Counted from the stretch's first letter, positions 41,957 to 48,390 are shown. The stretch is 64,000 nucleotides of DNA from Candidatus Nitrosocosmicus agrestis (GCF_008389435.1 NZ_VUYS01000011.1:1-64000), one strand, 5' to 3'. The notes: generated by a model from the letters alone, not told the origin. Program-made: numbers and translations.

Positions 41957-42580
41957 TTGCATATTAAATCTATTTTGAGTTCAACAAGAAATCTAAAAGA
42001 TGATCATATTGTCATACGAAGAGTTAGGGATATAGCACAAACCTGCTCTTATAAGCTATACAATAATATCTATGTTCCTATCGAACATATTGAAATCATT
42101 TCAGTAATCATAGAAGAATTTGTAGATAATTTTCATCATGGAAAAGAAGAAAAAGCTTATTTTCCTGAAACAAAAGGCAAAAATAATTTTGCCGAAGATG
42201 TACGCAAGTTCCTGATTGAACATGAATTGGGAAGAAGGATAGCAAATATGTTGAGGAGAGAAATTAGAGTATGGAGGGAAAAAGAAAAATCTGGGCTTCT
42301 CAAAAAATACGATACTGGTATTAAAGAATTAAATCAAATGGAACCAATAGCAAGATTTTTGAAGTCATATGCGATTTTCATCGACGATCATACAGGAAAA
42401 GAAGACAAATTCTTTGATTTGATCATGTCTAAAGCGGTTATAACAAATGAAGAAGACAATCATCTGTTAAAGCACTATGAACTGTGCAAAAATCAGGTGG
42501 GAGGAAAGGAACGTATTGAGGAGATGATAAAACTAATAGAATATCTTGAAGTGCAAGATTGGATGAAATCAACTAATTAA
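41957..42580 (+). CDS. Hemerythrin-like HHE domain protein
   Basis: A 207-residue protein with TTG start. The four-helix bundle ligands are visible: His in LKDDHIVIRRV, His-His in DNFHHGKEEKAYFPET (H-H-x-x-E-E), His in LIEHELGRRIANML, and His-x3-Glu in IDDHTGKEDKFFDLI. This fits the HHE cation-binding family, which binds a diiron centre and handles oxygen, NO or iron. A second member lies at 62649-63197. No signal peptide. The chain is about 30 residues longer than a minimal domain because of a helical C-terminus. Confidence 0.88.
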   Translation: MHIKSILSSTRNLKDDHIVIRRVRDIAQTCSYKLYNNIYVPIEHIEIISVIIEEFVDNFHHGKEEKAYFPETKGKNNFAEDVRKFLIEHELGRRIANMLRREIRVWREKEKSGLLKKYDTGIKELNQMEPIARFLKSYAIFIDDHTGKEDKFFDLIMSKAVITNEEDNHLLKHYELCKNQVGGKERIEEMIKLIEYLEVQDWMKSTN

Positions 42581-42792: not shown

Positions 42793-43125
42793 TCATAAAT
42801 TCGATGAGCCATCGGAGCAAGTACTAATTATTTCATTCCCTGTATCAATCAATTGGTAGATTTCGGGTATAGGATTCCCATGAAATATAGTAGCAGTTCT
42901 TTCATGAATCTTTTTATGAGTATCGCTTTGATGCAATATAGTAAATGAATCCATCGAATCAAACTCTACCGCAGCAACATATCCTCCATTTTTGCACTGT
43001 AACAATCTTCTTGATATTAAACCAGGAGTTTTTTTTAAAAGGTAATTTGACCATTCAAACCATTTAATAAAATCTTTATCACGTCCGGCGTTTATTGTAG
43101 GAAATTTTGCGATTACTATTATCAT
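42793..43125 (-). CDS. ABM-domain protein in operon with zinc ferredoxin
   Basis: A 110-residue protein: IIVIAKFPTINAGRDKDFIK, WFEWSNYLLKKTPGLISRRL, YVAAVEFDSMDSFTILHQSD, THKKIHERTATIF. The strand-helix-strand-strand order with a G-x-x-x-x-x-x-L before a K-x-G-x-Y-x-x-x-x-x-F/W-x-S block is that of ABM or heme-degrading monooxygenase-like proteins. It starts 21 nt after the ferredoxin gene stop, so the two are co-transcribed. The ferredoxin could supply electrons to it, or both may serve a shared oxidative step (inference). Confidence 0.7.
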   Translation of the reverse strand: MIIVIAKFPTINAGRDKDFIKWFEWSNYLLKKTPGLISRRLLQCKNGGYVAAVEFDSMDSFTILHQSDTHKKIHERTATIFHGNPIPEIYQLIDTGNEIISTCSDGSSNL

Positions 43126-43146: not shown

Positions 43147-43713
43147 TCAGTGACTGTGGGGAGGTGGTGCACTACCTTTAGAGAGTGATTCATTGTAGGT
43201 TCTCGATTCTCTTTCATGAAATTCGAGATTAGATTGATCCACTTTAATGGCCAGAGGTGGACATACGGAAACACATGCCATACACCAGATACAATCATGT
43301 TCTCTAATTGGATCCGATTTATCTGAATAATCCTTTCGTCCTTCTCTATCATGGTTTTCGCCTTCGTCGCCACTTGTTGCGTTTACCATCTCAATGGCAG
43401 GAATATCATTTGCTGTTCGATACCATTGAAATACTTGTACAGGACATGCTTCAATACATGCTCCATCTGCTACACATGAGTCCCAGTCGACTGCAACCAT
43501 AGTACCGTGAACGCCTAAAGGAACATAGGTCTCATTTCTTTTTTTATATGCATTTTGTACTTCAGCGTTGGTTGCAGATTCAGCATCCGACCTTCCGGGT
43601 CCCCAAACAAAATGAAAATGTTCATCATCAACATGGTCGTGTCTACCTACTACTTTGTGATTCTTTGGGAAATCAGAATCTATTGGCATGTCATTTTTAG
43701 TCAAGTAAATCAA
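43147..43713 (-). CDS. zfx: Zinc-containing ferredoxin (archaeal Zfx type)
   Basis: A 188-residue protein; the ATG at residue 9 (43689) is the likelier start. Seven cluster Cys: Cys80, Cys86, Cys90 ([13 protein letters not shown], with Asp83 at the usual second Cys) and Cys141, Cys144, Cys147, Cys151 ([13 protein letters not shown]). This predicts one [4Fe-4S] and one [3Fe-4S] or labile cluster. The N-terminal extension carries VVGRHDH and [13 protein letters not shown], matching the His ligands of the isolated zinc site in Sulfolobus ferredoxin, and SDPI supplies the Asp. Between the cluster motifs is an acidic insertion (about 112-132, [19 protein letters not shown]) not in the Sulfolobus protein. 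It is a cytoplasmic electron carrier for 2-oxoacid oxidoreductases. Confidence 0.92.
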
Positions 43714-44514: not shown

Positions 44515-45591
44515 TTGATCAGCTTATTGACCATACGAAAGTTACTTAGTTTGAAACTAGTCGTAATCACGATGACTATAGGGTTAGTTATCGCAAATGC
44601 AGTATCATTTGGGAGCATAGGTAATGCAATTGCTCAATCAAACCAAAAAACGGAACAAAGATCTCATCCAAAAAACCATGAAATTCAAATGGGTGTTAAG
44701 GAACTTAGTGATGATAGAATTGCTTACAAAATTAATAAATACATTTTACGAGACCTTGTCGATAACAGTACAACTGATATAACTTCCAATTATGATAATC
44801 ATATTCCGATACCAGGACCTACCATTGTGGCCAACGAGGGTGACAAAATTGAGATAACCTTAATAAACGAGATGGGTTGGGGTTATCCAAGTGTTCATAC
44901 ACATGGCGCTCATTATCGCATAGCTAGTGACGGGACCCTGAAGGATTTGAACAAGGTTTCGGATCAAGCTGCATCACCTTCTCAACCTTATACTTTTGAA
45001 TGGGATGCAGGCAACGGAACTGCTGGGTCGTGGCCATTTCATGATCACACTTTAGGAAGAAACGTCTTCGGAAAAAGCATGGATGGGCTGGAGACTGTGG
45101 GACTGTTTTCTAGCATAATAATAAATCCTGCTAATGGGAAAGTAGATGCTTTAATAGATGGTATCCCGACAAAGGTAAATGTCAAAGATATTGACAAGGA
45201 TTTTATATTGTTTGTAAATGATGATGTCTTTTGGGGCAGTGAAATTGATTATACCAAAAATGGAAAACATACTCAATTGGGTATTAATCCGACTTTGACG
45301 GCAGCAAATAATAGCATCGTCAGGTTCAATATTCAATCTATTGGAAATGAATTTCATAATTTTGAAATGAATAACGTTCATTGGCTTAAACCTGGAACAA
45401 ATACACAAATCAACTCTCACTTGATTGGCCCACTCGCAAATCATGTGTTTACAATCAAAGCAGACTCAAATGCTACTTATTTTGACAATTCCAAGATAAA
45501 CCTTCTTGCAGGAATGAAAGGAAATTTTGTAGTAGCCGATAATAATGGGAAAAGTAGCATGAATCCAGAAAGAGACGCTAATGTAATTTAA
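44515..45591 (+). CDS. Multicopper oxidase paralogue A: domain 1 active-site half only
   Basis: A 358-residue protein with TTG start and signal peptide (hydrophobic 14-31, ending AIAQ). Two cupredoxin domains. Domain 1 keeps all four trinuclear-cluster ligands: His128-x-His130 (VHTHGAHY) and His176-x-His178 (WPFHDHTLGRN). Domain 2 is homologous to that of the next gene (DKDFILFVNDDVFWGSEI, NPTLTAANNSIVRFNIQSIG) but has lost the copper sites: the H-x2-H-x-H box reads FHNFEMN (His281 kept, Glu284 and Asn286 instead of His), and the HCH-x3-H-x4-M box reads FDNSKINLLAGM, with no Cys and no His. It cannot hold a type 1 copper. The stop lies 3 nt before the next start. A partner with the missing half is therefore likely. 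Confidence 0.9.
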   Translation: MISLLTIRKLLSLKLVVITMTIGLVIANAVSFGSIGNAIAQSNQKTEQRSHPKNHEIQMGVKELSDDRIAYKINKYILRDLVDNSTTDITSNYDNHIPIPGPTIVANEGDKIEITLINEMGWGYPSVHTHGAHYRIASDGTLKDLNKVSDQAASPSQPYTFEWDAGNGTAGSWPFHDHTLGRNVFGKSMDGLETVGLFSSIIINPANGKVDALIDGIPTKVNVKDIDKDFILFVNDDVFWGSEIDYTKNGKHTQLGINPTLTAANNSIVRFNIQSIGNEFHNFEMNNVHWLKPGTNTQINSHLIGPLANHVFTIKADSNATYFDNSKINLLAGMKGNFVVADNNGKSSMNPERDANVI

Positions 45592-45594
45592 GGG

Positions 45595-48390
45595 ATGAGA
45601 ACTTTGGTTAAGCATACTAAACCAATCAAATGGGGGCAAATCGGAATGAGAAGGATTCTTCCTATGATTATTGCATCTTTAATCTTAACATCGGCTCTAA
45701 TTCCGGCTGGGGTAATTCAAAGCACCAAAGCATTCATACCTATCCCTCAAGCAAAAAATAATGATGGCAAGGTTTTCGATACACTATCCTCAAATATTTC
45801 AACAAATAATACTGATGCTAACAAATCTCTGACAAGTTCTTCTATACATGATATAACCATTGAAGAACAAGTGTTACCTGATGGCGAACCAGCTTATAAA
45901 ATGTTAAGACATCTGATTAACAATAGCTTAGATGTAACTGGCAACTATAGTAATATTGCAACAATTCCAGGTCCTGCGATCGTAATTAATGAGGGAGATA
46001 CGGTACATGTCAGTATTAAGCATTTAGATGGTAACATAACGCAGGAGGATTTCATTGCACCTCATCCTGGAACATTTGTATATCAAGATGACAAATTAGG
46101 AGACCGGGGTTTGTATGGTGTTGTCATTGTTAATCCGCATCATCAGATGACTGTAGCATTAGTTGATGGAAAAATAACTACGATACCGCTCAGCGAGATA
46201 GACAAAGATATCCTGTTATTTATGGTAGGCTCGACATTTTGGGGACTGGAAATTGCTAAAAATGGCACTCAGACACCCCTTTGGACTAATCCAGTACTCG
46301 TGGCACAAGAGAACCAAAAGGTTCGCTTTCATATAGTAGGCATTGGTCCTTCGTCAAATCCTAGCGGTCATTCTCATACATTTCATCTTCATGCTCACAG
46401 ATGGGTGGATCAAGGTACAAATAATATTATAGATGTGAAGGAGATACACCCAGGAACTAGCCATGTATTCGTTATAGATTCAGGAGACGGTGTAGGACCA
46501 GGAGACTGGCAGTTTCACTGCCATGTTTTCGCTCACATGGAGGCAGGTATGATGTCCACATTCAAGGTATTACCTGCAAATTCTACTTCGGGTGCAAATA
46601 AAACAGTGGTTCAGACAAGCATTCCTGGTGCTTCACCTTACCATAACTTCGCCGCATTTTCTGTTAGTGATGAGCCAGGAAAGTGGTTTAGGAATCTAAA
46701 GGGTGATATATCAGGTACTGGAAGCGAATCACTTGCAATAATCAACAAATCAGGAACAGTTAACTTCATGATGGATGCCACAAATGGGGTTCATACAGTT
46801 TCAAGTATTATTTATCCAAAAAACGCCAATAACATGCCATTTAGCCAGATGATGGCATACAAAGGAGGAGCTATAGTAAAGTTGGAAGATCCTGGTCTCT
46901 ATGTATTTGCATGTAGTCTTCATCCGTTCATGCTAGCAGCAGTCATTGTTGATGATCCAGCGACCAAAGGTTTGGATCTTGGCGCAGAACTAACTTTGGT
47001 TAATGGAGATACCATACCTACAAACAGTGAGTTAGCATTGAGATTGTTAAGAACTTTGTTTATCGTTACCTCTACTTCTAACTGGCAAGACTACTCCAAC
47101 CAAACAAAACCATGGCATGTAACCTATCCAGATGTGGATGTAAGAATTGTTAATGACACAGTGGTAAATGTCAAAAATGTTTTGGAAAAAACATATGGTC
47201 AAAACCAGACACTAACTCCATTGTCAAATCCTGTTACACCAGCCGTAGGTGAAATCTGGATTGATACACAGTTTGAAAAAACATCTGGAAAGACCAAACC
47301 AGGAACTGCTACGGCAATTAACGGCACTACATGGAAAGTCAGCAAAAAAGTATCACTTCCTCAAATAGAAATGAATAATCCTCACAATATGTGGACCGAT
47401 AGAAACCAGGACCTGATCTATCAGACAATGTGGTTTGATAACAGAACTTCTGTGTTTAACCGAACGTCAGGAGAACTCATAAAAGATATTCAAGTAGGCG
47501 ACGATCCCTCCCATGTCATGACAGGAACCAAAACAGATAAACTATATGTTGCTTTAAATGGTGAAGACGGTGTTACAGTATTATCTCCAAATCCAGACTT
47601 TGAACCGAAAAAATTCATACTATTGCAGTCTCCAGCCTCACCATCGACACATCCACATGGACACTGGATGAGTGCAGATGATAGGTATATGGTGACGCCC
47701 GATGCGCTTACCGGCACAACTACCATTTATGATATGCTACAAGACAAAATAATAGGAAAAGTGAAGACGGGTGTTTCTCCAGTCGCAGTTGGGATGTTGC
47801 CAGATGGTAGCAAGTCTTATGTCGCGGACTTTTTTGACAGTAGCATAAGTGTAATAGATACAGCAAATGCGACTCTGTTAAAGAAAATTAACCTTCTTGA
47901 GAACTATGATCCAATAAGTGGTAATAAAACAGGGCCGATGGGATTTCTTCCTATACAAACACCTGTAAGTCCTGATGGCCAATACATGGTAACTGCAAAT
48001 ACTGGTGGCACAATAACTGTATTGGACACGGAAACTGATAAGGTTGTAAAGGAATTACCATGTGATCCCGGGTGTCATGGGGTCAACTTTGGAGCAAAGA
48101 AGGGCGGAGGATACTACGCCTATGTTTCCAGTACATTTTCAAATGAAGTTATAGTTGTGGATGGCGATCCCAATAACGATGGAGATCCAATAGACGCCAA
48201 AGTCGCCGGAAAGGTTTCTTTGGTTGCTTCTGCAAGTACCAAAACAGATGATACAATATCTGGCCTCGAAGGAACAGGAGGTCAAGGTGTCCTAGCAATT
48301 CCAAACGTATATGATGGATGGGTGCAAAACCTGCCTTCCTATTGGAAAGGACTCTTAACTGATGCACAACAGAACCCATCAGGTTTGTAA
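45595..48390 (+). CDS. Multicopper oxidase paralogue B fused to cupredoxin and beta-propeller
   Basis: A 931-residue protein. The ATG at 45595 or Met18 (45646, closer to the signal peptide) starts it. Domain 1 (about 85-200) has lost all ligands: the first H-x-H region is deleted and FHDH has become YQDD (163-166). Domain 2 (200-325) is complete: His261, His264, His266 (HTFHLHAH) and His308-Cys309-His310, His314, Met319 (FHCHVFAHMEAGM), giving type 1 copper and four cluster histidines. Domain 3 (340-455) is a plastocyanin-like fold with His400, Cys440, His443, Met446 (FACSLHPFM). Residues 590-860 form a YVTN-type beta-propeller (for example SPVAVGMLPDGSKSYVADFF). Exported. A poly-T run ends the operon. 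Confidence 0.9.
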   Translation: MRTLVKHTKPIKWGQIGMRRILPMIIASLILTSALIPAGVIQSTKAFIPIPQAKNNDGKVFDTLSSNISTNNTDANKSLTSSSIHDITIEEQVLPDGEPAYKMLRHLINNSLDVTGNYSNIATIPGPAIVINEGDTVHVSIKHLDGNITQEDFIAPHPGTFVYQDDKLGDRGLYGVVIVNPHHQMTVALVDGKITTIPLSEIDKDILLFMVGSTFWGLEIAKNGTQTPLWTNPVLVAQENQKVRFHIVGIGPSSNPSGHSHTFHLHAHRWVDQGTNNIIDVKEIHPGTSHVFVIDSGDGVGPGDWQFHCHVFAHMEAGMMSTFKVLPANSTSGANKTVVQTSIPGASPYHNFAAFSVSDEPGKWFRNLKGDISGTGSESLAIINKSGTVNFMMDATNGVHTVSSIIYPKNANNMPFSQMMAYKGGAIVKLEDPGLYVFACSLHPFMLAAVIVDDPATKGLDLGAELTLVNGDTIPTNSELALRLLRTLFIVTSTSNWQDYSNQTKPWHVTYPDVDVRIVNDTVVNVKNVLEKTYGQNQTLTPLSNPVTPAVGEIWIDTQFEKTSGKTKPGTATAINGTTWKVSKKVSLPQIEMNNPHNMWTDRNQDLIYQTMWFDNRTSVFNRTSGELIKDIQVGDDPSHVMTGTKTDKLYVALNGEDGVTVLSPNPDFEPKKFILLQSPASPSTHPHGHWMSADDRYMVTPDALTGTTTIYDMLQDKIIGKVKTGVSPVAVGMLPDGSKSYVADFFDSSISVIDTANATLLKKINLLENYDPISGNKTGPMGFLPIQTPVSPDGQYMVTANTGGTITVLDTETDKVVKELPCDPGCHGVNFGAKKGGGYYAYVSSTFSNEVIVVDGDPNNDGDPIDAKVAGKVSLVASASTKTDDTISGLEGTGGQGVLAIPNVYDGWVQNLPSYWKGLLTDAQQNPSGL

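Follow-up and report, generated by a model that had tools for sequence, protein, structure and literature searches.

In the Mnx complex, MnxG has its own oxidase sites and the accessory subunits are unrelated proteins of 12 kDa. It is established that the solved two-domain multicopper oxidases are trimers, as also stated in the available extracts of PMC13151041. In the archaeon N. franklandianus, genes NFRAN_2029 and NFRAN_2030 were described as "two copies of MCO3" and count among its most upregulated biofilm genes, with cell-surface modification suggested by the authors as their role (PMC12448741, in the extracts available). Here we analyze a 64,000 nt stretch (hereafter, the window) from Candidatus Nitrosocosmicus agrestis (GCF_008389435.1, NZ_VUYS01000011.1:1-64000), an ammonia-oxidising soil archaeon of the Nitrososphaeraceae, which contains two adjacent genes coding for multicopper oxidase-like proteins, designated A and B. 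We consider it probable (around 0.83) that A and B act together as the subunits of a single multicopper oxidase, two-domain in type and obligately heteromeric, with a composite trinuclear cluster; each protein holds half of the copper center and, therefore, neither is likely to work alone.

Protein A (44,515–45,591, + strand; 358 amino acids) is a two-domain multicopper oxidase subunit with an active half-site in domain 1 and a degenerate domain 2, according to its open reading frame (ORF), Pfam, its PDB relatives and a table of ligands. From its ORF, Pfam and the same table, protein B (45,595–48,390, + strand; 931 amino acids) comprises a degenerate domain 1, an intact domain 2, a third cupredoxin domain and a beta-propeller. 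Both ORFs are in the same frame, and the 3 nt that the original prediction placed between the stop of A and the start of B were found again in the ORF check. A could start at the TTG at 44,515 or at a downstream ATG at 44,572, an ambiguity that does not affect the argument for a split site; protein A is probably secreted, and so, probably, is the A-B oxidase. Pfam recognized Cu-oxidase_3 in A (1.5e-10) and, in B, Cu-oxidase_2 at the N-terminal part (4.9e-9) as well as Lactonase, with YNCE appearing only below the cut-off. In phmmer searches of PDB, two-domain laccases were the best or near-best match for A and for the first half of B, the overall top match of B being a YVTN propeller. Pfam, these matches and the secondary structure of a tethered A-B model agree on an oxidase core of two cupredoxin domains in each subunit.

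The copper ligands are divided between the two proteins in a complementary manner. A holds the four trinuclear-cluster histidines of domain 1, as His128-x-His130 in an HTHG box (44,896–44,904, + strand) and His176-x-His178 in an FHDH box (45,040–45,048, + strand), and its domain-2 ligands are reduced to His281 (45,355–45,357, + strand), left over from the type-1 site, and Met334 (45,514–45,516, + strand), the leftover axial ligand. B lacks the first domain-1 box through a deletion, has YQDD (46,081–46,092, + strand) as the degenerate equivalent of FHDH, and retains a complete domain 2: His261 (type 1) and His264 and His266 (trinuclear) in HTFHLH (46,375–46,392, + strand), and His308, Cys309, His310, His314 and Met319 in HCHVFAHMEAGM (46,516–46,551, + strand). 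The ligands assigned to A and to B in the original prediction were all recovered, in the sequence and in the table of ligands. The eight cluster histidines that it counted over both proteins were likewise confirmed, whereas the single type-1 site that it proposed was not, since the third cupredoxin of B contains a second set of type-1 ligands.

The same division recurs among homologs from species-representative genomes, many of which are metagenome-assembled genomes (MAGs). All four domain-1 histidines, in both boxes, are present in the 69 A proteins with a readable domain 1; conversely, the type-1 Cys of domain 2 is missing from all 70 A proteins, which have at most one of the domain-2 cluster histidines, with the equivalents of His281 and Met334 kept in 63 and 68 of them, respectively. 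The full set of domain-2 ligands was found in 70/70 B proteins, except for one change of Met to Ile (axial Met in 69/70), and none of these proteins has more than one domain-1 histidine. No single subunit therefore has eight trinuclear histidines, A having the four of domain 1 and B the four of domain 2, and the eight are invariant in archaea and bacteria across 22 paired alignment rows. Since the same losses occur in around 70 pairs from two domains of life, complementary loss of ligands is, judging from the sequences, far beyond what chance would produce. This recurrence, which includes closed genomes, also rules out a pseudogene or a sequencing error. The lack of one half-site in each protein, and the connection of the N. 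franklandianus homologs with biofilm growth (PMC12448741, extracts available), could also be accommodated if A and B were separate homotrimers of catalytically dead oxidases with structural or cell-surface roles; we regard this as extremely improbable, because opposite halves would then not stay invariant in some 70 pairs, nor would A and B always co-occur. Incidentally, most A proteins have Asp instead of Cys in the dead type-1 site (45,460–45,520 in the window), where the His and the axial Met are mostly retained, and a new role, structural or involving a metal, is possible for this site.

Relatives in which the oxidase is encoded by a single gene serve as controls. Both half-sites were present in 21/21 of them, 12 being fused chains and nine stand-alone oxidases. 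In Nitrosopumilaceae-type archaea (our family f9) one long gene, mostly of 1055–1215 codons, joins a two-domain oxidase to the cupredoxin-propeller, and the 12 fused genes examined were all complete. The stand-alone complete oxidases comprise two archaeal ones (around 360 amino acids) and seven of gammaproteobacteria from the order to which Methylothermaceae belong; in these gammaproteobacteria, the cupredoxin-propeller has a gene of its own (around 600 amino acids) that comes after the one for the complete oxidase. These relatives indicate that a half-site is lost only where two copies of the oxidase exist, and that the loss is always reciprocal. They also bear on the idea that A might be a copper-carrying or chaperone partner whose histidines deliver copper, and B an electron-transfer protein with no trinuclear cluster and with domain-2 histidines that are structural. 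A indeed lacks any type-1 site and B has additional domains of the electron-transfer kind; however, the eight histidines, in the exact HxH/HxH pattern, show no variation across the two domains of life, whether in the 22 paired rows or over the larger set, the one-gene relatives have the same eight in one chain, and delivery of copper would not need the four of B, all of which makes this option improbable. As separate observations on the gammaproteobacterial loci, the gap between the oxidase and cupredoxin-propeller genes is around 15–40 bp in three of them (L183, L184 and L187, from the order of genome G106), and several have a divergent ArsR/helix-turn-helix-type regulator upstream.

Around 70 A-B pairs came out of a genome scan and whole-genome searches. 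They belong to Nitrososphaeraceae and to Nitrosomonas (including N. europaea), Nitrosospira and Nitrosovibrio, and in them the ORF of B comes immediately behind that of A, either overlapping it or at a short distance. Among 125 genomes of Nitrosomonadaceae, the family of Nitrosomonas europaea, A was found in 72, each of which also has a B that contains oxidase sequence, with B interrupted by a frameshift or a contig end in a few of them; another 14 genomes with a match to the B family have only the stand-alone cupredoxin-propeller and no A. Likewise, B accompanies A in all 11 of the A-bearing Nitrososphaeraceae genomes from a class-level archaeal search that covered 350 genomes. The original prediction had asked whether A and B always co-occur: A is not widespread without B and was accompanied by the oxidase half of B in every case (72/72 and 11/11). 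In Nitrospira we found only the propeller unit, and no A-type gene was retrieved from 147 genomes of the Nitrospira family at E ≤ 1e-40, in a search that had no internal positive control.

A tree of 87 oxidase regions placed the A sequences from archaea and bacteria in one group and the B sequences from both in another, each with a support of 99 in the Shimodaira-Hasegawa-like approximate likelihood ratio test (SH-aLRT), and with the undivided oxidases on A's side of the midpoint root. A and B remained apart after deletion of the ligand-motif columns (SH-aLRT 96 and 91), so that an artefact in which degenerate motifs draw the A or B rows together can be discarded. The A and B subtrees mirror each other, with distances that correlate with r = 0.92 overall, 0.76 in bacteria and 0.94 in archaea (permutation p = 0.0002). 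The simplest history compatible with these sequences would be one duplication, then reciprocal loss, and movement of the whole pair from one domain of life to the other.

The last 590 residues of B, overlooked in the original prediction, form two more domains. The third cupredoxin, plastocyanin/pseudoazurin-like (approximately residues 345–455; 46,627–46,959, + strand), was delimited from an AlphaFold model (m79d0116730e6) and homologs, and has its own type-1 ligand set, H400/C440/H443/M446, in 89/89 homologs. The beta-propeller (approximately residues 545–900; 47,227–48,294, + strand) was delimited from homologs, the model and Foldseek; its His597, 640, 688, 690 and 828 are conserved in 85–89 of the 89 homologs. 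Four distant archaeal proteins also retain H400, C440, H443, M446, H597, H640, H688 and H828. The cupredoxin-propeller unit was modelled with very high confidence, at a predicted local distance difference test (pLDDT) score of 94.4 and a predicted template modelling score (pTM) of 0.93, and DSSP assigned H597, H640, H688/H690 and H828 to the first strand of four-strand repeats, or near it. This location in the model suggests that the conserved histidines face the central channel, and a metal site in the propeller is possible.

Foldseek searches with this unit retrieved generic propellers. We also considered that the propeller-cupredoxin half of B could be an enzyme similar to nitrous-oxide reductase (clade III L-NosZ), the oxidase half being secondary. 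The histidines in or near the inner propeller strands would agree with this, as would the 60 of 73 homologs that match the L-NosZ model with a best E of 1e-19; nevertheless, the window protein reaches 47 bits against a cut-off of 700 (NF052460), comparable to its matches to generic propellers, no NosZ occurs among the PDB structure or sequence matches listed, and the cupredoxin of B is type-1 (CxxHPxM) and not CuA. On these grounds of score, generic fold and cupredoxin type we rejected the identification of the propeller as NosZ, and the reading as a whole has very little probability.

As a separate observation, a stand-alone protein of around 600–700 amino acids, made of a cupredoxin and a His-rich beta-propeller, is the counterpart of window positions 46,600–48,387 and is found in Nitrospira, Nitrososphaera, Rokubacteria and ammonia-oxidising bacteria, often alongside B (loci L131, L142, L146, L148-L151 and L153-L156); its conserved histidines suggest an undescribed metal site.

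For a model of both subunits, the stop codon of A was read through into B, giving a tethered chain aligned with 21 in-frame homologous pairs; a mixed paired and unpaired alignment, in which A rows slid onto domain 2 of B, was left out. The resulting AlphaFold model had a pTM of 0.78, with 125 of 656 residues disordered, including the linker. We take this value as a sign that the model gives A and B a defined mutual placement, as two independently placed halves would be expected near 0.5, a threshold of our own. Over the phmmer and Foldseek searches, the nearest structures were two-domain laccases, ceruloplasmin and MnxG (9bxa); in Foldseek, ceruloplasmin and factor V/VIII matched the tethered model across all four domains in sequence.

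The strictly alternating A-B assembly anticipated in the original prediction did not find support, because the known two-domain oxidases are trimers and an odd ring cannot alternate. By analogy with them, AB, A2B or AB2, each with one active interface, would be at least as plausible as alternation. An even, strictly alternating ring with the composite cluster (A2B2 or A3B3) would make every A-B pair active, and the accessory subunits of Mnx do alternate, as MnxE3F3 (PMC5622069); yet a ring of three, as in the solved oxidases (PMC13151041, extracts available), could not be built in that way and the large C-terminal module of B may crowd the ring, so that we see this arrangement as unlikely, albeit worth keeping in mind. 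The other part of the original prediction, one shared cluster formed by domain 1 of A and domain 2 of B, was supported by co-occurrence, the reciprocal clades and the complete undivided relatives.

Several points weigh against a heteromeric oxidase with a shared cluster. Vertical inheritance alone, through shared descent, also yields mirrored A and B trees, which thus support an A-B interaction and do not prove it. One B gene (G024:C14) has no adjoining A, with two A genes elsewhere in the same genome, and a B-like protein from a Nitrosopumilus-labelled MAG (L145/L171), where no A was found, combines a degenerate domain 1 with a change of the axial Met to Ile. Only about half or less of the tethered model is superposed by Foldseek on any solved structure, and the contact of the half-sites at the A-B interface is deduced from the architecture of two-domain oxidases. 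Independently of this, the same Nitrosopumilus-labelled MAG also has a fused oxidase with both half-sites.

Under the heteromeric oxidase that we favor, the gene for a ring-forming two-domain oxidase would have been duplicated; one copy, A, would have remained a separate protein, retaining from the cluster no more than the domain-1 half, and the other, B, would have been joined to a cupredoxin-propeller module, keeping only the domain-2 half and the type-1 copper. O2 would be reduced at a single trinuclear cluster where domain 1 of A meets domain 2 of B, with the type-1 copper in domain 2 of B passing the electrons to it; this copper would most likely be fed by the plastocyanin-like third domain, which may in turn take electrons from a substrate site in the propeller. 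Analogy with two-domain oxidases argues strongly for a shared cluster at the A-B interface; we put forward with less confidence the route of the electrons, a substrate site in the propeller and the stoichiometry, including the better fit of AB, A2B or AB2 to the ring geometry than strict alternation, and the source of the electrons is a guess.

The spread over ammonia oxidisers, Nitrospira (as the propeller unit) and gammaproteobacteria near methane oxidisers also allows for a role in nitrogen-oxide or copper metabolism. A more specific proposal, which we hold to be rather doubtful, is that ammonia-oxidising archaea and bacteria share a two-gene oxidase, of which Nitrosopumilaceae and relatives of methane oxidisers among the gammaproteobacteria have one-gene forms, and that its composite cluster, its two blue coppers and a histidine-lined metal site in the propeller would make up one electron chain oxidising an intermediate of nitrification, for instance nitric oxide (NO), nitroxyl (HNO) or hydroxylamine, with O2.

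The genes beside the pair in the window are a divergent one for a ferredoxin-type protein (43,147–43,713, − strand; compare NFRAN_2032) and one for a protein with an antibiotic biosynthesis monooxygenase (ABM) fold (42,793–43,125, − strand; compare NFRAN_2033). Genome G004 likewise has ferredoxin-type and ABM-like genes next to the pair, an arrangement that agrees with the account of NFRAN_2029-2033 in the extracts available of PMC12448741, and NFRAN_2029/2030 are very probably orthologs of the pair. A hemerythrin-domain protein is also encoded near the pair, at 41,957–42,580; according to the same extracts (PMC12448741), hemerythrin adjoins MCO4a in N. maritimus. In bacteria, response-regulator genes occur upstream of A in Nitrosomonas europaea (locus L093) and Nitrosospira (locus L094), and one family of response-regulator-like ORFs recurs in 26 of 54 bacterial loci.

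No description of a split trinuclear site in a heteromeric oxidase was found in the open-access literature; subscription papers were mostly outside this search and a prior description is possible. If correct, our proposal would provide a natural case in which a homo-oligomer became an obligate hetero-oligomer by reciprocal loss of active-site halves, and in which undivided relatives have survived as controls, in organisms that drive nitrification, among them the model bacterium N. europaea. It would also imply that A or B expressed singly should be an inactive enzyme, and that an annotation made from one gene by itself will describe a laccase, either ordinary or dead. Since cultures of N. europaea and N. 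franklandianus exist, the idea can be tested directly.

Compared with described systems, archaeal MCO3 (NFRAN_2029/NFRAN_2030) is very probably orthologous to the pair, having adjacent genes, ferredoxin-type and ABM neighbors and upregulation in biofilms; as published, in the extracts available, it is presented as "two copies", with the complementary half-sites, the extra domains of B and the bacterial pairs going unmentioned (PMC12448741). YVTN/YncE-type propellers, hydrazine synthase beta and L-NosZ share the fold of the C-terminal domain of B, through generic matches that fall far below curated cut-offs, and differ from B in that its plastocyanin-like domain is N-terminal to the propeller. 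The Mnx complex (MnxG with MnxE3F3) is, like A-B, a heteromeric multicopper oxidase, in this case bacterial, and 9bxa is among the structural matches; in the pair, however, neither protein is complete and A is a two-domain paralog of B instead of a small unrelated subunit. Ceruloplasmin is a detectable relative and also a ring of cupredoxins in which one interface holds the only trinuclear cluster, but it is one chain of six domains without a propeller, whereas A-B consists of two gene products with two and three cupredoxins. The two-domain or small laccases (SLAC, Ssl1, type-B) are the closest solved structures to A and to the first half of B, and share with them two cupredoxin domains, a type-1 copper in domain 2 and the HxH/HxH motifs; unlike the pair, they are homotrimers with three identical composite clusters, whereas A and B are each one half-site short, and B is longer by two domains.

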